DNA of 51,303 nt. Source: a virus. Every line of letters starts with the position of its first letter. The stretch's first letter is position 1. The position numbers and the translations under genes are program-made. This document shows, one piece after another, positions 4,321 to 50,469 of the stretch. Location of the stretch: positions 1 through 51,303 of IMG/VR virus record IMGVR_UViG_3300006790_000023. One strand, written 5' to 3'. The notes under the pieces are model-generated. The model had not been told where the DNA came from, did no database searches, and was given only the letters and a program-made list of their open reading frames with translations.

Positions 4321-5883
4321 ATGGCCAAAAAGAGTGGTAGCTCTTTTGGAAATTTCAGTAGGAAAGAAGTTTTTATTCCTCGTGCTGTAAAGCCAATTAC
4401 GACTGAGTTTTCAAAAGGCTCTGTCCCAGATTCTATCTATACAGTTAACCGAGAAGCGGCATGGTCTCGTTGGCGCAGAGGGTATGAACTTGCGACCGCT
4501 GCTTTTTATGATAACTCTTACGATTATCCTTTTACTTATACAATACCCTTACCACCAGGGCTACCACCCTCCAATGGAAATCAGCCTAAGATTCCTGGGG
4601 TCTTTAAAGGCTTTCCAACTAAAAACAAGGAATTTGGAATGCATTGGGCTGGCGTACGTGTTGCCGGTAGCTTGCGTTTAGACAACATAGAAGATACAAG
4701 TGGAACACCCGCTTCAATCGCCTCTGTTACAGAGGATGATAGCTTCTGGTACGTACAACTTTCTGGTTCATGGAGCGCCCTTAATCCTTTGCCACCTCCA
4801 CTATATGTACCGATTCCAGGAGTTCCAGGAGGCCTAAAGGCTATTAACGGAGAAATCCTAGAAGATAGAATTATCAGCGCAGGTGGGGTGCCTATTGATC
4901 GGAATACAATTAATCCGGCGACACAAAAAAGATATGGTTATGTATCTGCTGTTCTTGTAGATACAGATCCATTCAATGGGATTCTTAAGTTACAAAAGGC
5001 CGGTTCGGTTGAAGCCACTCCCGATAGAACTTTAGTGACGCCTGCCACTAAACCTCCAGATGTGAGCCGCTTTTTAATGACGGGAACACGATATTGCTGT
5101 TCTTGTCAAGACTTCAATAGAAGGGATTACGCATTTGTTTCTTCTTTGAACAAAGTATCAAATTCGCTAAAAAGTAAATTCCCGAGAACAAACATTGCTG
5201 TTTTAAAGCCAGGACGTTACGAAGTATTGACAGAAAATGGTGTCGTCAATAATGCGGCAATGACTAGCGCAACAACAAACAGAGATATGCGGATTATCTC
5301 GCCTGCTCCTGAATATAACGTTCCGCCAACTATTACTCCAACTACATCAACAAAAACAGGCGCAAACAGAGATAATCCAGGTGTTTTTAGAGACTTTGGT
5401 TCAATGTATTTAAGAAGCACAACAGACCCATCTTTACCTGGCGCAAAGTCAGAAGGAATGCCTTCTTACGGTGATTACGCAGCAGAAGGAAATGTAATTG
5501 TATCCCTTACCGATACATGGACACCTCTACTAGATGAGATGCGTTACTGCAAACATATCTATGCGATGAAATATGAAGAAGGTGTATTTCCTCCAGAGCC
5601 TTCTGATTTTCCCGTTGGAATAGAAAGCATGGCGGCTTGGGAACAAGACCTTGTCCAAAAAACAGAAAGCGATCAACTCGAAGCAAGAGCAGCAAATCAA
5701 CAAAGAATTTCTTTGTCCTTGATGGATGTACCTCCTTACAATTGTCAGGCTCCAATGATGATGCCAATGATGCAGAAGCTATTCAATGTTCCCTCTACTT
5801 TTATCAAGATGGCCGGGTTCACCATGTTTGACAAGAGCGGCAATACGTATATACCAGCATCTGGCGAGCTGCCCTCTTCTTAA
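4321..5883 (+). CDS. Virion structural protein with a split SWIM-like cysteine/histidine motif
   Basis: 520 residues from ATG 4321. The sequence is aromatic- and proline-rich with long beta stretches, as expected of a phage structural protein. Near residue 258 it has RYCCSCQDFNRRD and near residue 409 YCKHIYAMKYEEG. Together these make CxC...CxH, the signature of SWIM zinc fingers, where the second half is usually followed by a helix as here. The usual gap is short, but here about 150 residues intervene. The protein ends with a Met-rich segment. Function unknown; a zinc-stabilised virion protein is my inference. Confidence 0.65.
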   Translation: MAKKSGSSFGNFSRKEVFIPRAVKPITTEFSKGSVPDSIYTVNREAAWSRWRRGYELATAAFYDNSYDYPFTYTIPLPPGLPPSNGNQPKIPGVFKGFPTKNKEFGMHWAGVRVAGSLRLDNIEDTSGTPASIASVTEDDSFWYVQLSGSWSALNPLPPPLYVPIPGVPGGLKAINGEILEDRIISAGGVPIDRNTINPATQKRYGYVSAVLVDTDPFNGILKLQKAGSVEATPDRTLVTPATKPPDVSRFLMTGTRYCCSCQDFNRRDYAFVSSLNKVSNSLKSKFPRTNIAVLKPGRYEVLTENGVVNNAAMTSATTNRDMRIISPAPEYNVPPTITPTTSTKTGANRDNPGVFRDFGSMYLRSTTDPSLPGAKSEGMPSYGDYAAEGNVIVSLTDTWTPLLDEMRYCKHIYAMKYEEGVFPPEPSDFPVGIESMAAWEQDLVQKTESDQLEARAANQQRISLSLMDVPPYNCQAPMMMPMMQKLFNVPSTFIKMAGFTMFDKSGNTYIPASGELPSS

Positions 5884-5948
5884 AATGTAAAGATGAATTG
5901 ACCGTCAGTAAGCGTTAGAGTTAAAATTAACTATAATTTTTGATTATA

Positions 5949-6724: not shown

Positions 6725-6896
6725 CCGCCTTTACATTCCAACGATAGCTATCGCGGGAACGCGTTTCCGGAAAGGCGGCAAAGTGTGGACCCAGTTTCAA
6801 AGTACCGTCATCGCGATACTTAAAAAGAGTCTTGCGGTCGATCCCAAGAAGCTCTTCAACTTGTTGGGCTGAGACCCAGCCTGGATGCTTAGCCAT
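6678..6896 (-). CDS. Excisionase-like helix-turn-helix DNA-binding protein
   Basis: 72 residues. WVSAQQVEELLGIDRKTLFKYRDDG is a MerR/excisionase-type helix-turn-helix, followed by a wing (SRDSYRWNVKAVRKHL). Proteins of this size and shape act as Xis or as small transcription regulators. It overlaps the integrase-like frame tail to tail by 47 bases, and its promoter region (6897-7032) holds two TATTGAC repeats one helical turn apart that could bind it. The final residues may be fraying because of the overlap. Confidence 0.65.
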   Translation of the reverse strand: MAKHPGWVSAQQVEELLGIDRKTLFKYRDDGTLKLGPHFAAFPETRSRDSYRWNVKAVRKHLQKQGMMPVAA

Positions 6897-38069: not shown

Positions 38070-38143
38070 CGGGGATTAGCGCAGTTTGGTAGCGCATCTG
38101 CTTTGGGAGCAGAGGGTCGCAGGTTCAAATCCTGCATCTCCGA
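38070..38143 (+). tRNA. tRNA-Pro (UGG)
   Basis: 74 bases with full cloverleaf: acceptor CGGGGAT/ATCTCCG, D-arm with AGTTTGGTA loop, anticodon stem TCTGC/GCAGA with loop TTTGGGA and anticodon TGG at 38104-38106, T-arm GCAGG-TTCAAAT-CCTGC, discriminator A. CCA is not encoded. Phage tRNAs often help translate codons used more by the phage than the host, and Pro-rich virion proteins are frequent here. Confidence 0.93.
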
Positions 38144-38451: not shown

Positions 38452-40874
38452 CGGAAGAATAATCCACCCGCTTCTGTAAGGCCTAGCTCAGGAAAGCGTA
38501 CTTCACCAAAGGGAGTGGGGAATTTCCACCTGGAACCACGACGACGAGCAGCTTCCGCTCTAAGCAACTGCGGATTTGCGCTTGGACCTTGCGCGTTATA
38601 TGCCTCAGGACTTTGTTGACGTTCTATAGATTGTTGTCGTGTAGATGGTTTAGCACTTCCACCTAATTGAGAAACAACAGCAACAGGATTCGCAACGCGT
38701 AAAGCACCAGCTGCTACCGGAAGAACAGCAGCAGTTGTCGCAGGCGCTAAACGTTGAGCGAGTCCAGCACCTGCCCCGACTACTGGAGCAGCCGCTGTCC
38801 CAATTGCATATTCAGTAGCAACTTGACGAGCTGCTTTACCTGCATCACCTTGTTCAATAGCTTGCCTGAAAGCTGGATCAAACAATGGAACAGAGCCTGC
38901 AAGGTCTGTTGTTGTGTTAAAACCGGTTCGGATTGCTTGCGTAATGTTTGGCAGAGCTTTATTGTATGCTTCGATTTGTTTTGCCTTAGCGGCCACATCA
39001 GTTAATACTTCTCTCGGATCTATGCCTGCACCTTTAAATACGTTAGTAGTAAAGTTAACAGGATCTAAATTAGCTTGCGATCCCAAGTTTGGAGGATTTA
39101 AGTACATTCTTCCTGTTTGACTTAAGTCCAATGGAGCAGCAGCCGTAACCCCGCGCATTCCAGGTTGAGCACCACGCGCTGTAGTAAATGCTTCACCAAG
39201 AGTTGTTTTAAGGTTTATATCATCTTTTATTTCTTCAAAGAAATTTGGATTGTTGTAAGGTGATATCAATCTATTGCCCACGTCACTAACTGCTACAGTA
39301 ACAGGCGCAATGGTACGTGGATAAGGTCTACGTGGTTCAGGTCCAAGGGTGTCTTCTAAAACATCGCGTGTTGTACGACCACCAATAGCTTTATCCCCTA
39401 ATAAAGCTTGATACACACGCAAATCTCTTTGGAATTCAGGGGACTCTACTTCAATTCCTTGGGCTTTAAGACTGTTAATTGTTTCAGGTAAATAACCTAC
39501 TTTGCTTATTTCTTTTAAAGCATCCGCTTTGGCCTCCCATTGTTTAGGTGCCTCCCTTAAAGCAACTTGCTCTGGTGTATTAAAAAATTGCTCTTCTTTT
39601 TCAATTGCAGCTTTAAGAGCAGGTGTTGCTTGGTTAATTTTATTTTGTAGTTCTTGGAAGTATAGACCTTGATCAACTGTAGGAACTAAGGGTGCATTCA
39701 TTAAAGATAGTGAGTTTCCATAAGGAATGCCACCTTTGCTGTATCCACCGGCAATTCTCTGTGTGGTTACACGAGGAGGATTGAGATTGGACCATGTTTC
39801 AGGATTATTGCCCATGAATTCATCAAGGGCTTGATTGCGTTTGGTAAAAGCTTCACGCGTGAGCGCATCGTCCCATTCAACAGAACCTCCACGTTTAAAT
39901 GCATTCCAGTTTTGATTTACTTGATCATAAAACTCTTGACCTCTTTGGGCCATAGTGTTGAATTCTTCTTGGCTAATAGGAGGACTCAAGAAAGATTCAA
40001 CTCTGTTTTGATCACGGAACAACGAACTTCCTTGTGCAGCACCACGTTGTTGAACAAGAGTTCTACCAGCCATTCTTGCTTGTTGACGTGCAGCATCCAA
40101 CGCCTTATCGTAAGCTTGAGCAGGATTCAAATCATCAAGCCACTCCAATTGTTGAGTTAATCCTTTAAGGCCAATACGATTTGTCCCTAATGGAGTTGCA
40201 CCAACATTTTCTGCAATTGTAATTAGCTCTTCTCCGCGCAACGTATTACCAACATTGGCAAAATCATGCATGGCATCATGCAAAATTAGTTCATTTCCAT
40301 ATGGTTGATATGTTTGCGGATTTTTTACTTGAGCTTGTCCTGGTTTTTGTCCTGGAAAATATTGATCTAAAAATCTTTGAGCCCGTTCGTAAACAGTTTC
40401 TGTGTCTCTGATATCAACAGGTGCTCCTGTAAAGTCAAACTCTTTACCAAACGGTGAGGCTGTTGGTGCATAGTCTGTATCTTGTAAATTAAGTACAGGA
40501 ACACGTTTAGGATATAGTTCTTTAAAGTCAGTAACAGGTAAATCACTAGTTGGACCCTGGGGATATACTATGTCAATCCTAGGTTGACCAGGCACTGAAT
40601 AATTTGGGAAAGCAATAGGTGCATTTCGTGTTGGAAAACCTGGGCTTAATAGTCCAGCCGGACCTCTATTTGCATAGTTTTCTGCTGCAAGTTGACTTGC
40701 TTTTTCAGCAGAAAACTGTGTAGCTTGTTGTGTTAATTGTTGTTGTTTTGCAGCTTCAAATTGAGCAGCGCGATCATATAAACTTTGCAGTTCACCTGCC
40801 AAAGGTTGACCAGTTTTAGCTGCGTTAAGAATTGCAGCGTTTAGTTTTACGCGTTCCGCAGGAGTTAATTCCAT
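38448..40874 (-). CDS. Large Ala/Gln/Pro-rich protein, probable internal virion protein
   Basis: 808 residues from ATG 40874, overlapping the Dps-like stop by one base. The N-terminus is helical and Gln/Ala-rich (TPAERVKLNAAILNAAK, QQQLTQQATQF). The body has many N-P-x and Q-rich helices; a hydrophobic, Ala/Val/Gly-rich stretch (AAPVVGAGAGLAQRLAPATT) lies near residue 700, perhaps membrane-active. The end is basic and aromatic. No enzymatic motif. Size and composition resemble internal virion proteins that enter the host with DNA; this is inference. Confidence 0.55.
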   Translation of the reverse strand: MELTPAERVKLNAAILNAAKTGQPLAGELQSLYDRAAQFEAAKQQQLTQQATQFSAEKASQLAAENYANRGPAGLLSPGFPTRNAPIAFPNYSVPGQPRIDIVYPQGPTSDLPVTDFKELYPKRVPVLNLQDTDYAPTASPFGKEFDFTGAPVDIRDTETVYERAQRFLDQYFPGQKPGQAQVKNPQTYQPYGNELILHDAMHDFANVGNTLRGEELITIAENVGATPLGTNRIGLKGLTQQLEWLDDLNPAQAYDKALDAARQQARMAGRTLVQQRGAAQGSSLFRDQNRVESFLSPPISQEEFNTMAQRGQEFYDQVNQNWNAFKRGGSVEWDDALTREAFTKRNQALDEFMGNNPETWSNLNPPRVTTQRIAGGYSKGGIPYGNSLSLMNAPLVPTVDQGLYFQELQNKINQATPALKAAIEKEEQFFNTPEQVALREAPKQWEAKADALKEISKVGYLPETINSLKAQGIEVESPEFQRDLRVYQALLGDKAIGGRTTRDVLEDTLGPEPRRPYPRTIAPVTVAVSDVGNRLISPYNNPNFFEEIKDDINLKTTLGEAFTTARGAQPGMRGVTAAAPLDLSQTGRMYLNPPNLGSQANLDPVNFTTNVFKGAGIDPREVLTDVAAKAKQIEAYNKALPNITQAIRTGFNTTTDLAGSVPLFDPAFRQAIEQGDAGKAARQVATEYAIGTAAAPVVGAGAGLAQRLAPATTAAVLPVAAGALRVANPVAVVSQLGGSAKPSTRQQSIERQQSPEAYNAQGPSANPQLLRAEAARRRGSRWKFPTPFGEVRFPELGLTEAGGLFFR

Positions 40875-43229: not shown

Positions 43230-43931
43230 TCAATCTTCTGGTAGAAGCTCTCCTGGATACTCGGATGTTTCCAGTTCCATTCGGGGTTCTGCGTAGATGC
43301 GTTTGGATCGGGCACTGTATTCTTGAGTGACTTTGACTCCAGTCGGTAGTTGTTGACCGTTTTGATAGGCGCTGCGTATGGCATCAATGTTTGGGAGGAT
43401 TTTTGTTTTAGTGGAAGGTTCTGTTCTATCAGATAGAACTTCTCCTGACATTGAACGTAACACAACTCGTTTGGTTGTGGTGACTTCTTCTGCAACGCAA
43501 TAAAGTTCTCTTTCTTTAGTGTGCCAAAACTCTGGGTCCGAGGAGATCTCGATTGTAAGCTCTTTCTTTTTAACAAGGGTGAACTGGTAATTGCGACCGG
43601 TGATCTTATTCGAATCCTGTGGCAGGACACGACGCAGATAACTTAGCAGGTTTTTGAGCGATCGCAGCTGGGATTCATGGTGACGCTTGGCTTGCACAAT
43701 GAGATCGTTTTCTTTTTTGATGCGTTCGAGCGCATCTTCATGCGACGCCATTGCGTAATAGATACGATCAATTTTTTCTGACCGTAAGTTGGCGCAAGTT
43801 TCAAGCTCTGCTTTAGCCAGTTCCTGGGATTCAGGAGTGAGAAGAGGGAGAGACTGCTCGAGAGCAGCATAGTGTTTGTATAAATCAAAGACGTTTAGTT
43901 TACCAAGTTTTGTTTGAGTAATTTGTGACAT
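43230..43931 (-). CDS. Siphovirus Gp157-like protein
   Basis: 233 residues. The N-terminal ~110 residues form long charged helices, probably coiled coil (LAKAELETCANLRSEKIDRI; KRHHESQLRSLKNLLSYLRR). Next comes ITGRNYQFTLVKKKELTIEI, a strand pair matching the Gp157 layout of helices then a K-I-x-x-x-x-F-x-L-x-K strand. Gp157 proteins are linked to phage resistance and recombination regions, with unclear mechanism. It starts three bases after a tiny membrane peptide gene. The end is Glu/Pro-rich. Confidence 0.5.
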   Translation of the reverse strand: MSQITQTKLGKLNVFDLYKHYAALEQSLPLLTPESQELAKAELETCANLRSEKIDRIYYAMASHEDALERIKKENDLIVQAKRHHESQLRSLKNLLSYLRRVLPQDSNKITGRNYQFTLVKKKELTIEISSDPEFWHTKERELYCVAEEVTTTKRVVLRSMSGEVLSDRTEPSTKTKILPNIDAIRSAYQNGQQLPTGVKVTQEYSARSKRIYAEPRMELETSEYPGELLPED

Positions 43932-43934
43932 GGT

Positions 43935-44048
43935 TTAATTGAATTGAGATTGAATTTTGTTGAGCATGTAGGTCAGCAGCATACCTGCCGCTGCCCAAAG
44001 AAGATCTTTCATCACCGGAAGAACGGTGGCAAGCAAGGTTTCGAACAT
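43935..44048 (-). CDS. 37-residue membrane peptide
   Basis: ATG 44048 to TAA 43935-43937, three bases before the Gp157-like start. FETLLATVLPVMKDLLWAAA then GMLLTYMLNK is amphipathic to hydrophobic with a basic end. It fills the space between the repeated leader motif (44063-44098) and the next gene, and the motif sits 35 bases upstream of this ATG as in two other genes, which supports it as a real start. Confidence 0.55.
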   Translation of the reverse strand: MFETLLATVLPVMKDLLWAAAGMLLTYMLNKIQSQFN

Positions 44049-44062
44049 GAGTTGAAGTTGAA

Positions 44063-44098
44063 GTGTGTGGTCAGTTTTACGTCATGACCAGGACGGCA
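44063..44098 (-). promoter_or_regulatory. Leader motif copy 3 (CCGTCCTG...GACGTAAAAC)
   Basis: On the minus strand: CCGTCCTGGTCATGACG then TAAAACTGACC. It aligns with copies at 47455-47488 and 48575-48609. The GACG core begins 35 bases before the ATG of the 37-residue gene. Probably a promoter or conserved leader. Confidence 0.55.
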
Positions 44099-46041: not shown

Positions 46042-46053
46042 ACGTTAAGTAAA
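46042..46053 (+). promoter_or_regulatory. ACGTTAAGTAAA motif upstream of the 88-residue gene
   Basis: An exact 12-base match to 35228-35239. It starts 37 bases before ATG 46079, close to the 35-36-base spacing of the GACGTTAA core in the minus-strand leader motifs. Likely the same promoter class on the opposite strand. Confidence 0.4.
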
Positions 46054-46078: not shown

Positions 46079-46345
46079 ATGGAAGAAATTAAGTACGTTC
46101 CATTGACTCAGTTTCAAATTGAACCAACACTTGATGATAAGTTCTGGCTAGAAAAAGTTAAAAGATCAATAGAAGAATGTAATTCAGTAAGTACATTGAA
46201 AGAAATGGCGACCTTGCTTGCGCAGATCGCCACAAATCGTCAAGGTGTGATTAGGGGATTGATTCAAGACATGTTCATCTTCAACAATGTTGCAGTCGAA
46301 CCAGATGCTGTAAACAATCCCCAGGTTCCTGGGTTAGAAGGATAG
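46079..46345 (+). CDS. Small helical protein on the plus strand
   Basis: 88 residues from ATG 46079. EEIKYVPLTQFQIEPTLDDK then FWLEKVKRSIEECNSVSTLK and MATLLAQIATNRQGVIRGLI make a helical hairpin. It is the only plus-strand gene in a 12-kb minus-strand block, and overlaps the DUF5895 gene tail to tail by 12 bases. It might be a host-derived regulatory protein; not recognised. Confidence 0.6.
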   Translation: MEEIKYVPLTQFQIEPTLDDKFWLEKVKRSIEECNSVSTLKEMATLLAQIATNRQGVIRGLIQDMFIFNNVAVEPDAVNNPQVPGLEG

Positions 46346-47434
46346 ATCTTCTCCTGTCATTTCATCACGAGCAGGCAATGCTTTTACATCTACTGCGTCT
46401 GAAGTACGAGAGACGGGAAGAATCTCAACACCTTCTTTAATTCCATAGGCACCACCAAGGCGTTGTGCATCTTGGCGGGAGTGTTGATTGATGTAATCAT
46501 CAAACATTTCCTGCATCTTCCAGGTTGATTCACGATCTTCATCGGGAATGCTGAGGCGATTAAGAGATTCAATCGCTTCATCCTGAGAACTGTAGTCAGG
46601 AATTTCAAAGGATTCAATAGCGCAGATTTCTACGTTATTGGCGCCACGCATTTCGTTGGCAAGTACAGGAGCAAACACTGTCGTAGCATAAAACTTTTCA
46701 TTGAATGCCAGAGGAACCTCAGAGTCCAGAGCTTTGCTTAAGCACTTAGACATTTCCTTTTCGTACAGCTTTACCTTATCGGATACGTCTGTACCGTTAA
46801 GACCCTTAAGTGTTAACACCATAGGAATTTTGTGGGCACGCTTATTGTCCTGGGTCAGAATGTAGACCAGGTATTTAGTGCGCACACTGTACTTACGTTT
46901 GTACATCTCACCTTTGCTATTGGCAAGATCAGATGCAACCTTGTCATTATCAAAAAGTTCTTTGACTTCTGGGTGCTCAAACGTTCCAATTGTTTGGCGC
47001 ATTCCAGTAGTTTCTTCTACCATCAAGGGAGAACGCAACAAGATCTGAACACGAGGTTCAATAAAGTTGAGTCCTTCTTCAACTGAAGTATTGGGAGCCA
47101 TGCCGAATGTTTGCTTGTAGCCCCAGATAACTGAACCTTTTTGAAACTGATCTTCAGTTGCAGTCCATCCACAGGAATCGAGGTCTGATTTACGGATAAA
47201 CCATCCTCGGACTTTTGATTTGTTGAGGGGTTGAATTGTGACAAGGTTTTGATAACCAGAAACAAATTCTTTGGATTGGAACATCTTAAAAGAGTCCAGT
47301 CCCCTGGTAGCCAAGGCTGATGTTTTTTTGGTAGTCATTTTCTTAAGAAGTTTCGGAGAAGGGGCAGAGGTTGTTTCAGCTTCGAGTTCATCCATCCAGG
47401 ATTCACTCATCATGTCAGTTGGAGTAACAGGCAT
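46334..47434 (-). CDS. DUF5895-family protein (cyanobacterial, replication-linked here)
   Basis: 366 residues. The region KVRGWFIRKSDLDSCGWTAT followed by VIWGYKQTFGMAPNTSVEEG and RVQILLRSPLMVEE fits DUF5895, a family from cyanobacteria and their plasmids and phages. The N-terminus is Ser/Lys-rich and flexible. The end (ARDEMTGEDLSF) has an acidic-Phe tip similar to SSB-type tails. It follows a leader motif copy, with polymerase and SSB upstream. A single-strand-binding or replication-accessory role is inferred. Confidence 0.6.
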   Translation of the reverse strand: MPVTPTDMMSESWMDELEAETTSAPSPKLLKKMTTKKTSALATRGLDSFKMFQSKEFVSGYQNLVTIQPLNKSKVRGWFIRKSDLDSCGWTATEDQFQKGSVIWGYKQTFGMAPNTSVEEGLNFIEPRVQILLRSPLMVEETTGMRQTIGTFEHPEVKELFDNDKVASDLANSKGEMYKRKYSVRTKYLVYILTQDNKRAHKIPMVLTLKGLNGTDVSDKVKLYEKEMSKCLSKALDSEVPLAFNEKFYATTVFAPVLANEMRGANNVEICAIESFEIPDYSSQDEAIESLNRLSIPDEDRESTWKMQEMFDDYINQHSRQDAQRLGGAYGIKEGVEILPVSRTSDAVDVKALPARDEMTGEDLSF

Positions 47435-47454
47435 GGTTTGTTCGTAGTTAGAGC

Positions 47455-47488
47455 CAGGCCTTTTAACGTCTTACCAGAGGACGGGAAA
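47455..47488 (-). promoter_or_regulatory. Leader motif copy 1 (CCCGTCCTC...GACGTTAAA)
   Basis: On the minus strand, right after TGA: CCCGTCCTCTGGTAAGACG then TTAAAAGGCC. The intergenic spacer to ATG 47434 is 54 bases, the same as for copy 2, and the GACGTT core begins 36 bases before the ATG. Confidence 0.65.
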
Positions 47489-47743
47489 TCACTCTACATC
47501 GTTGAGTTCATCTTGCTGTAGCTCAAGAAACACTTCTTTATTGGAATTGTAAAGCTCAAGGTATTGCTTCGAAATTTCATTCATCCGTTCAATGATGTTC
47601 AGTTCAAGATGACCAATACCACGTAGGAATTGAATCATCTCATCAACAATTTCATCTGTCCCAATTGCTTGGAACTGATGCAACACTTTACGTTTACCAT
47701 CCTCAAAGAGGAGTGTGAACTGGTCTTCAGCTTGAGTTGACAT
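47489..47743 (-). CDS. Small acidic helical protein between SSB and DUF5895 genes
   Basis: 84 residues from ATG 47743, which overlaps the SSB stop by one base (TGATG). It begins with a strand pair (FTLLFEDGKRKVLHQFQAIG) and continues with helices (IVDEMIQFLRGIGHLELNII; KQYLELYNSNKEVFLELQ). It is the second gene after SSB and probably cotranslated. Function unknown, likely replication accessory. Confidence 0.6.
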   Translation of the reverse strand: MSTQAEDQFTLLFEDGKRKVLHQFQAIGTDEIVDEMIQFLRGIGHLELNIIERMNEISKQYLELYNSNKEVFLELQQDELNDVE

Positions 47744-48555
47744 CAGAATGGTTCCTCGTCTAGTTCAGGTGCAACGCCATATTGGCCAGGGAGGTCAGGA
47801 AGACCACCACCAGAAGTAACATTCCAAGGATCAGTAGAAACTTGATTTGATGTACCACTATTCCAAAGGGGCTGAACTTCTTGTTCAATACTTACTGTTG
47901 TTTGTGGTTCGATAGGTTTGGCCTCATTAACTGTTGTTTTAGGAGCCAGCGTCATTTTATTGAGCTGGATTTTTGTTTGAGATTTGCGTTCACCATTTGA
48001 ATCAGACCACGCATCAGTAACAAGACGACCGCGAATAGTAATACCAACACCTTTGCGAGTCATATTGGCAAGTAACTCAGCATTGTTCAATCGATCTGTT
48101 GCATTGTTCATTGCAAAGAAGTTGAACAGGTCAGCTTGGTTCTTGCCTGTTGTTACTGAAATTGTTTGATTGCAGATCATTAAACCTGATTCTGTTGTGC
48201 GAAATACCCGTGGATCATTGAGATCTAAATTTTTCACACAACGACCAGTCAAGATCACATCATTGAAATGTGGAAACTGATCACTAGCAGGCGCGACATT
48301 ACCGCCATGCAATGAATGAGTGCGTGTATCTAAATCGTGTCGCAGTGTTGATCCGTGTAAATAAATGTGTGCACCTTTTGGCGCTTTAGCAAAACGCTCT
48401 GCATTCTTGCCATAAAGATTGAGTTCGATGTGAGTTGGGGCTTTATTACCAACAGCAGGTAATGCAATCATGCATCGCATTGCTGTCGAAGTTTCCGATA
48501 TAAAAACTTCTCTTGGTTGTTCAAGTGTTTGAGCGTAGGCACAGACAAAGTTCAT
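47743..48555 (-). CDS. ssb: Single-stranded DNA-binding protein with two OB-like domains
   Basis: 270 residues. Residues ~100-205 form a standard SSB OB fold (FNDVILTGRCVKNLDL, then GLMICNQTISVTTG, then GVGITIRGRLVTDAWSD). Residues 1-95 look like a second, degenerate OB unit (MRCMIALPAVGNKAPTHIEL, YGKNAERF, KGAHIYLHGSTL). The C-terminus is a disordered, Pro/Gly-rich linker ending DEEPF, like the DDDIPF tip of bacterial SSB that recruits partners. It coats single-stranded DNA at the fork. Leader motif copy 2 precedes it. Confidence 0.8.
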   Translation of the reverse strand: MNFVCAYAQTLEQPREVFISETSTAMRCMIALPAVGNKAPTHIELNLYGKNAERFAKAPKGAHIYLHGSTLRHDLDTRTHSLHGGNVAPASDQFPHFNDVILTGRCVKNLDLNDPRVFRTTESGLMICNQTISVTTGKNQADLFNFFAMNNATDRLNNAELLANMTRKGVGITIRGRLVTDAWSDSNGERKSQTKIQLNKMTLAPKTTVNEAKPIEPQTTVSIEQEVQPLWNSGTSNQVSTDPWNVTSGGGLPDLPGQYGVAPELDEEPF

Positions 48556-48574
48556 GTTGTGTAAAGCAAGGTGG

Positions 48575-48609
48575 TAAGGCAGTTTAACGTCATACCTGAG
48601 GACGGGCGA
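48575..48609 (-). promoter_or_regulatory. Leader motif copy 2 (CCCGTCCTC...GACGTTAAA)
   Basis: On the minus strand, just after the polymerase TGA: CCCGTCCTCAGGTATGACG then TTAAACTGCC. The spacer to the SSB ATG (48555) is 54 bases, with the GACGTT core 36 bases before the start. Confidence 0.65.
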
Positions 48610-50469
48610 TCAGTGAGTATCGTACCAGGTTCGGCCAACTTTGGCATCCCCTTCAATGCCGCACTGAAACCCAAAAAATTCCTGAGCTTGCGGGAAAGCT
48701 TTTAATGCGCTATCTTTCACCAGCTCCACGTGTTGCGGTTTGCAACTAAGCTGGATTTCGTCATGGATCATGGCGTGTTGAACCCAGTCAACCCCATAAA
48801 CAAGACCAGTTTCTTCAACGTTTTGATGCAGATTAATTACAACTTGCTTCATGATGATTGCACCAGCTGATTGCAACAAAACATTTAGTGCTTTGAAATC
48901 AGATCGACAATAAAGAATTCTTTTGTCTAATCCATACAAACAATTGTTTTTAGTAAGATTCTTATTTAATTTTTCCCGCAGTTCTCTCAATGCTGGCACA
49001 CCATCCATGAATGAATCGATTGCAGTTCTTCCTAGTTTGCGCAGAACAAATTCATCTTTTTCATTCGGATCAATAATAGTACCGGCTTTAACTGCACCAC
49101 ATCCATACAACATTCCATATAACAAACGCTTACTAATATCTCTGGTGGCCACGCCAAACTGTTGTCGGTTGTATTCGTGAATGTCAACCGTATCATCAGT
49201 CACCAAAGCAGCGTATTCTCCGTTGTCCCAGAGGGCAAGGTATCCAGCAAGGCAACGTAGTTCAAGTGCTTTAGCGTCAACACCAATGAGGTTCCACCCG
49301 TTAACAGCAGAGAACAAACTTCTGCATTCTTTTCCATAGGGTGAGTAAGCTGCTGGGACTTGACCCATATTTGGATTGCGGTGTGAACAGCGCCCAGTAA
49401 TGCAACCGTTAGTAGTAACATCACCGTGGATACAACCAGTGTCATTGTTGTAAAGATTACGCCAAGAGTTGTTGCCTTCTGAAAGCTGACCAAGACGTTT
49501 CTTGACCAGCATGTATTCAGCTAAAGGTTTTGCTTCTGGATAGGGCAGTTGTTCTATAACTTCATCATTAAGAATTGGATTTCCTTTTTCAGTTGTCTTT
49601 TCAGGTGTCCATCCATATTTGTTCTTGAGTCGATCAACGATTTGATCACGAGATCCAGGATTGAATTCTTCATAACTAACTTTGGTGAATGGCTGGCCTT
49701 TGACATAACCTCTTTTAGCATTGTTTACTTTTGGAATAAATACAGTTTCATGCTTAATAGGAGGAAATACTTCCTTTAATTTGTTTTCAAGTTCTGTTTG
49801 TTTTGTTCGTAGATCATCCATGAGATCAAGAGCTGCATCCATATCAAAAGGAAAACCCGATCTAACTTGTCTATTAATTGCCAACGCAAAGTCGTGCTCC
49901 AATTTAAGAGCTGGTTGCGGATAGTTTTGAACACTGATGTGTTCCCAAAGTTTTGTCGTGACTGCAACGTCTTGTTTGCAGTATTCCAACATCTCTTCAG
50001 AATATTGGGAGAAGTCTTTGAAGTCGATCTTATGATCGGCCAGTCTCCATCCCCAAGCCTTAAGTGATGCGGATCCACGGTTCTTCGCTGGAACCTGCGG
50101 ATATTGTTCCGTGTCAAGGTCATAGAGTTTCTCCTTAGGCCAGATCAATCGTGTGCAGATAAGAGTGTCAATGATTTGTGCATTGCTTTTGAAGTCATGT
50201 AACTTCTCAAGCACAGGGCAATCGTAGAAGATGATGTTATGACCAATTAAAACATCAGCGGTTGCCAGATGAGCAAGAGCATCAGCAATGCAATCAGGCC
50301 CGTAAGAAAAAGTTTGTTTGGTTGCAATGTCATGGATAACAATGCAGTAAATTTTTGTAACTTTGTCATAAAGGCCGTCGCTTTCAAGGTCAAAGATTAA
50401 GTACTTATCATTTGCGGAAACGGGACTCATCTTGAATTGAGAGTTCTTTACAGGCAAGGTCTTCGTCAT
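48610..50469 (-). CDS. polA: T7-like family A DNA polymerase with 3'-5' exonuclease
   Basis: 619 residues from ATG 50469 (ATG 50430 is possible and overlaps the upstream gene less). Exonuclease motifs: FDLESDG (D27, E29), IGHNIIFYD near 75-83 and YCKQDVAV near 163. Polymerase motifs: A VDAKALELR near 397, B RDISKRLLYGMLYG (K447, Y451), C HDE at 569-571. Length is below the 704 of T7 gp5, and the thumb region is short. The residue equal to E. coli F762 is Tyr (Y451), as in T7. It replicates the phage genome with the SSB encoded downstream. Confidence 0.93.
   Translation of the reverse strand: MTKTLPVKNSQFKMSPVSANDKYLIFDLESDGLYDKVTKIYCIVIHDIATKQTFSYGPDCIADALAHLATADVLIGHNIIFYDCPVLEKLHDFKSNAQIIDTLICTRLIWPKEKLYDLDTEQYPQVPAKNRGSASLKAWGWRLADHKIDFKDFSQYSEEMLEYCKQDVAVTTKLWEHISVQNYPQPALKLEHDFALAINRQVRSGFPFDMDAALDLMDDLRTKQTELENKLKEVFPPIKHETVFIPKVNNAKRGYVKGQPFTKVSYEEFNPGSRDQIVDRLKNKYGWTPEKTTEKGNPILNDEVIEQLPYPEAKPLAEYMLVKKRLGQLSEGNNSWRNLYNNDTGCIHGDVTTNGCITGRCSHRNPNMGQVPAAYSPYGKECRSLFSAVNGWNLIGVDAKALELRCLAGYLALWDNGEYAALVTDDTVDIHEYNRQQFGVATRDISKRLLYGMLYGCGAVKAGTIIDPNEKDEFVLRKLGRTAIDSFMDGVPALRELREKLNKNLTKNNCLYGLDKRILYCRSDFKALNVLLQSAGAIIMKQVVINLHQNVEETGLVYGVDWVQHAMIHDEIQLSCKPQHVELVKDSALKAFPQAQEFFGFQCGIEGDAKVGRTWYDTH

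Follow-up and report, generated by a model that had tools for sequence, protein, structure and literature searches.

What is the short sequence that recurs in the leaders of three minus-strand genes of this virus genome, and does it act as a phage-specific promoter or as a conserved structured leader, the two readings that the first-pass annotation had offered? We find that within the window (the whole stretch of DNA analysed here, a virus record of 51,303 nt) the repeated motif is almost certainly a 28-nt H-type RNA pseudoknot lying in the mRNA between genes, and that what repeats is, as judged from comparison of the leader sequences, the fixed skeleton of a small knotted RNA fold (Table 1). 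The annotated facts from which this question arose hold up: the leaders CCGTCCTCAGGTATGACGTTAAA (SSB), CCGTCCTCTGGTAAGACGTTAAA (DUF5895) and CCGTCCTGGTCATGACGTAAAA (37-residue gene) are all present on the minus strand, the first two spacers are both exactly 54 bases from TGA to ATG (48556-48609 and 47435-47488), and the core begins 36, 36 and 35 bases before the respective start codons.

Table 1. Predicted leader pseudoknots of the window, their parts, and the genes that follow them
Feature	Position	Strand	Detail
Pseudoknot before SSB	48577..48604	-	strict caller
SSB leader, S1	48604-48601 / 48591-48588	-	CGUC / GACG
SSB leader, S2	48597-48593 / 48581-48577	-	AGGUA / UGCCU
SSB leader, L3	48587-48582	-	UUAAAC
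Spacer between pseudoknot and SSB start codon	48556..48576	-	A/C-rich, G-poor
SSB gene	47743..48555	-	270 aa; PF00436, E=4e-11; 3' of first pseudoknot
Degenerate pseudoknot before DUF5895	47457..47483	-	L3 UUAAAAG
DUF5895 leader, S1	47483-47480 / 47470-47467	-	CGUC / GACG
DUF5895 leader, S2	47475-47473 / 47459-47457	-	GGU / GCC; only 3 bp
DUF5895 gene	46334..47434	-	366 aa; PF19247, E=5e-12; 3' of second pseudoknot
Pseudoknot before 37-aa gene	44068..44095	-	strict caller
37-aa gene leader, S1	44095-44092 / 44083-44080	-	CGUC / GACG
37-aa gene leader, S2	44090-44085 / 44073-44068	-	UGGUCA / UGACCA; perfect 6 bp
37-aa gene leader, L3	44079-44074	-	UAAAAC
37-aa gene	43935..44048	-	translation starts MFETLLATVLPVMKDLLWAAAGMLLTYMLN; 3' of third pseudoknot

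When the leaders are aligned across relatives, CGTC...GACG hairpins appear, and their loop can pair with the bases that directly follow UUAAAC; the arrangement is that of an H-type pseudoknot. Its build is an S1 of 4 bp (CGUC/GACG), an L1 of 1-3 nt, an S2 of 5-6 bp, an L2 of 1 nt and an L3 of 6 nt that reads UUAAAC or UAAAAC; among the clade leaders L1 is 1 nt in most copies, while the SSB copy in the window has an L1 of 3 and an S2 of 5. When the three window leaders were folded by a nested method, which cannot model pseudoknots, their stability was not clearly above that of shuffled sequences, and such unremarkable behaviour in plain folding is what is expected for a pseudoknot. The strict caller finds two copies in the window (44095 and 48604, minus strand), where 60 dinucleotide shuffles average 0.017, and the full pseudoknot is thus significantly enriched. 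The GACGTWAAA string alone was found three times against 0.92 expected and reached at least three in 7 of 100 shuffles, and is not significant. The plus-strand copies of ACGTTAAGTAAA at 46042 and 35228 are exact 12-mers, but they have neither the S1/S2 geometry nor the UUAAAC loop and are therefore unrelated to the leader motif.

Evidence for the fold comes from covariation. The nearest annotated relative of the window is Synechococcus phage S-EIV1 (KJ410740), and through DUF5895 we gathered 80 related S-EIV1-like cyanophage loci (the clade). When matches were selected without constraint on S1 or on the S2 core, all four S1 pairs form in 248 of 256, among them the variants CGUC/GACG, UGUC/GACA, GGAC/GUCC, AGUC/GACU, GGUC/GACC and AGAC/GUCU. 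Over 142 distinct 28-mers the paired fraction of S1 is 0.974 versus 0.896 when the 3' strands are permuted, and that of S2 is 0.844 versus 0.707 permuted and 0.30-0.42 with a slid partner. When S1 is left free, 144 copies are found in the clade loci and 6 in block shuffles. Two interleaved stems with covariation in each are thus observed, as in an H-type pseudoknot, and with the recurrence of the fold in unrelated phages (see below) they bear out the suggestion of a conserved structured leader.

Placement relative to genes is also tight in the clade, where the constant spacing noted in the window is also kept. All strict copies (136/136) have a start codon 3' of them within 5-60 nt, and the distance from the end of S2 to the ATG is 19-22 nt in 59 of 59 SSB leaders, which lie behind many upstream gene families, and in 54 of 54 DUF5895 leaders; in the SSB leader of the window it is 21 nt. 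The clade genes found 3' of the pseudoknot are SSB, DUF5895, GP88, a PcfJ-like protein and several small proteins, and the 37-aa gene of the window is itself conserved in the clade (family D1). Although the DUF5895 copy of the window is degenerate, orthologous DUF5895 leaders in relatives carry the pseudoknot. On the 5' side, 59 of the 120 clade copies with an upstream ORF begin exactly 5 nt past its stop codon, as does the SSB-leader copy, which begins 5 nt after the TGA (48610-48612) of the DNA polymerase gene. The first 20 nt past the pseudoknot contain 2-9% G in 128 clade copies.

Several further features of these genomes were seen along the way. The C-terminus of the window SSB (...LDEEPF, 47743-47763) resembles the C-terminal tip of bacterial SSB proteins, and the window carries a tRNA-Pro (TGG) gene at 38070-38143. 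On the minus strand of S-EIV1 (L003), the leaders of the genes ending at 40711 and 41408 have in common AAACCCTGGGC(A/G)TCCAT...GTRTAAGTCCCAGGA and the complementary CCTGGG/CCCAGG, possibly another structured leader, while those of the genes ending at 43419 and 43732 have CTGATCCGTCAAAGCGGGT followed by hairpins with differing stems (GGCTAGG/CCTAGCC and CCGGTAG/CTACCGG) around a TGCAAA-type loop, and look like a covarying RNA element. Ahead of their pseudoknot, GP88 leaders (L006 ~6815-6885, L022 ~5850-5918 and others) share the conserved stretch GCAGCAGAAACCCTGACTCCCTCGGG..CTGACGCTGCTC, over which no Rfam match was found in L006, L022 or L003.

Many other phages, most of them uncultured, carry the same predicted fold, and some genomes have it several times. 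An exact scan of GTDB genomes with CGTC/GACG fixed found 34 stretches in many phyla; 22 copies in these loci pass the strict caller, and some genes directly 3' of the copies resemble, by eye, genes for phage scaffold proteins. A viral scan that fixed S2 and left S1 free gave at least 120 matches in many unrelated viral contigs; of the 103 unique ones among the matches listed, 101 retain three or more S1 pairs, and the fully paired S1 stems are of 39 kinds. A second viral scan with another S2 again gave at least 120 matches, which brings the kinds of fully paired S1 over both scans to 50 among the matches listed, and a composition-matched control pattern with a mispaired S2 gave none. These collection scans give lower bounds and were not designed as an unbiased census. 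Judging the letters by eye, we saw no convincing UUAAAC-type copy in T4, lambda, phiKZ, SPO1, P-SSM2, S-TIM5, HTVC008M, HTVC115P or NootNoot. Apparent tandem pseudoknots were noticed in three of the loci (L232 4948-5010, L243 and L234), one of them with GGUC/GACC as S1.

Outside the clade we examined the placement of 207 copies among the matches listed, 158 of which have an adjoining upstream CDS on the same strand. The distance from its stop codon to the pseudoknot peaks at 5 nt (33/158) and is 4-10 nt in 103 of the 158, again among the matches listed; in the S2-fixed scan 17 of 74 listed copies with an upstream ORF lie exactly 5 nt past its stop codon. Among the listed copies, 35 were scored inside a called ORF, by a simple ORF caller whose calls may be wrong. 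As the next feature 3' of the 207 listed copies we find a same-strand CDS in 112, a tRNA in 40 and an opposite-strand CDS in 15. The tRNAs are, among the matches listed, mostly 3-13 nt away and mostly tRNA-Asp, and about 29 listed viral contigs (L437, L328, L284 and relatives) have a DUF932 gene, then the pseudoknot, then tRNA-Asp; since most tRNA cases are thus tRNA-Asp behind one family, these events are not independent. Hsp20 and capsid-like genes are also found 5' of non-clade copies. In the clade, then, the predicted pseudoknot follows the downstream gene, whereas in other phages its position is tied to the stop codon upstream. At the homologous post-Hsp20 sites the Pelagibacter phages HTVC008M and HTVC115P carry simple hairpins shortly past the stop codon, in keeping with a role at the 3' end in phages outside the clade; in HTVC008M (L478 776-979) a ribosomal protein S21 gene lies close to the Hsp20 gene.

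What might such an element do? As the best reading, though one that could well prove wrong, we tentatively propose that the pseudoknot is a roadblock that stays folded between terminating and initiating ribosomes and so uncouples the decay or expression of adjoining cistrons. Judged by the footprint sizes of terminating and initiating ribosomes, the distances to the stop and start codons would put it just outside both footprints, and it could then stay folded while both neighbours are translated. The folded pseudoknot would halt exonucleases, and neighbouring cistrons would obtain separate lifetimes or levels. In the clade the message lying downstream would be processed and the pseudoknot would shield its 5' end, in the manner of T4 gene 32; in other phages it would shield the 3' end of the message lying upstream, for instance once RNase P has cut at a tRNA 3-5 nt further on. 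Analogies are found in T4, where RNase E cuts the gene 32 mRNA at -71, immediately ahead of the pseudoknot, and where this mRNA is the most stable one (PMC3014915), and in the bacterial RNase J1, which is blocked by a flaviviral fold (PMC5760640). Within the window the weak S2 of the DUF5895 copy speaks against a roadblock. Considering that anchoring differs between the clade and other phages, a single function for both sets of copies is an assumption, and the 5-nt spacing may merely reflect a structured element avoiding ribosomes in a compact genome.

Within the clade the main rival to the roadblock is an operator bound by SSB, given that the architecture is nearly that of T4 gene 32 and that the T4 pseudoknot is the nucleation site for repression by gp32 (PMC535899, PMC3014915). 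Here the pseudoknot would be bound by the phage SSB, or by some other RNA-binding protein of the phage, which would spread over the unstructured spacer and repress translation of SSB and of a set of co-regulated early genes. Dimensions nearly those of the T4 leader pseudoknot, the recurrent site before SSB, the G-poor spacer before the start codon and the T4 precedent (PMC535899, PMC3014915) are all consistent with such a translational operator. We nevertheless consider it unlikely, in that the pseudoknot precedes many genes, that in other phages its neighbours include tRNAs on the 3' side and capsid, Hsp20 and DUF932 genes on the 5' side, where a translation repressor makes little sense, and that the SSB here is of the bacterial PF00436 type. 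Also improbable, to a similar degree, is an enhancer of translation initiation, in which the 30S platform or ribosomal protein S1 would dock on the pseudoknot and hold the ribosome at a start lacking a Shine-Dalgarno (SD) motif, much like a standby site. This agrees with the steady spacing of clade copies, some 20 nt ahead of the start codon, with the binding of H-type pseudoknots by ribosomal protein S1 in SELEX and with the pseudoknot required by the tisB standby site (PMC7708055). SD motifs are found in 0 of 5 pseudoknot genes of S-EIV1, but they are also rare in its genes without a pseudoknot (9/71), and since they are rare throughout S-EIV1 the comparison is uninformative as to SD replacement; moreover, in other phages the pseudoknot is followed by tRNAs or opposite-strand genes, which speaks against an enhancer.

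Other readings fare worse. That the pseudoknot is a transcription terminator, or the 3' end of the upstream transcript, is very unlikely, even though at least 5 T within 12 nt follow 33 of 235 copies of the broader set (14%, among the matches listed, as compared to a background of about 1%), apparent promoters are seen by eye after some copies, and an opposite-strand gene comes next in 15 of the 207 listed copies. In the clade a T-run right after the pseudoknot is found in only 2 of 128 copies and a co-directional start codon lies shortly 3' of every copy; the U-run directly after the structure that defines an intrinsic terminator is thus absent from most copies both in the clade and, among the matches listed, beyond it. 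A small metabolite-sensing riboswitch would fit an H-type pseudoknot with an invariant A-rich loop, and preQ1-I and SAM-II have a similar general topology of this kind. However, Rfam 15 gave no gathering-score match over the pseudoknot and nothing over the leaders at E<=10, the downstream genes have no common pathway, there is no overlap with the start site and paired positions vary freely, all of which makes a riboswitch highly improbable. The phage-specific promoter of the first-pass annotation draws on the fixed spacing before start codons and is extremely improbable: the stems covary and their DNA letters change from copy to copy, roughly one copy in two begins some 5 nt past a stop codon between co-directional genes, and copies without a near stop codon show no enrichment of a -10 element at a fixed distance upstream. 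In the stop-codon group a TAnnnT peak at a 7-nt gap is, by inspection, largely due to TAGACT, which recurs ahead of the stop codon in one gene family. A stimulator of programmed frameshifting or readthrough was rejected, as the stops are a mixture of UAA, UAG and UGA, with UAA predominating beyond the clade, and as no slippery heptamer was seen to recur upstream of the pseudoknot in contexts inspected by eye.

Taken together, these observations describe a pseudoknot resembling the gp32 operator and used many times over, which seems undescribed as a widespread element; we found no description of it in a literature search with preprints and most subscription papers outside its coverage. A fold of nearly T4 gene 32 dimensions is common in uncultured phages, tightly placed relative to stop and start codons and linked in part to tRNA genes, and it escapes nested-structure tools and Rfam. 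The cultured host of S-EIV1 allows a direct test of function, and a pseudoknot of 28 nt could be a useful part for setting mRNA levels within operons.

How does the element compare with known RNAs? A generic H-type scan reads the T4 gene 32 leader pseudoknot as 4/1/7/0/5 or 4/1/6/1/6 (S1/L1/S2/L2/L3), 39 nt before the ATG, and the clade pseudoknot is as a rule 4/1/6/1/6, about 20 nt before the ATG. Both lie upstream of an SSB gene and are followed by unstructured RNA (PMC535899). However, T4 has one copy before one gene, whereas here several copies precede different genes and are not restricted to SSB, being found also before DUF5895, GP88, PcfJ-like and small genes. The letters and the SSB families differ as well, protein binding is in our case putative, and the pattern CYNNNNANNNNNTWAAACTG has no match in T4, which gives no sign of relatedness in sequence. 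By context the nearest named RNA is the STAXI motif (RF01728), likewise a pseudoknot-based RNA near SSB and other DNA-handling genes (PMC2864571), but it is different in build, with 2-3 tandem units, 153 model positions and frequent UUCG loops; it has no match in the window, a weak negative in that the search was without a match in control genomes too. The tisB standby site and other pseudoknots that bind ribosomal protein S1 are, similar to ours, 5'-leader pseudoknots tied to ribosome loading (PMC7708055), although the tisB site is far upstream of a sequestered RBS and ours lies some 20 nt ahead of a start site that appears to be open. Lastly, the xrRNAs of eukaryotic viruses are compact pseudoknotted viral RNAs that act as roadblocks, which for the phage pseudoknot is a model only; they are ring-like folds, larger than a plain H-type pseudoknot, and have been shown to stop Xrn1 and RNase J1 (PMC5760640). 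It is conceivable, if rather doubtful, that minimal pseudoknots of phages form a widespread and hitherto undescribed class of exonuclease roadblocks at cistron and tRNA boundaries, and so a counterpart of xrRNAs; the T4 gene 32 pseudoknot would then be related to them in form and would have been co-opted for autoregulation.
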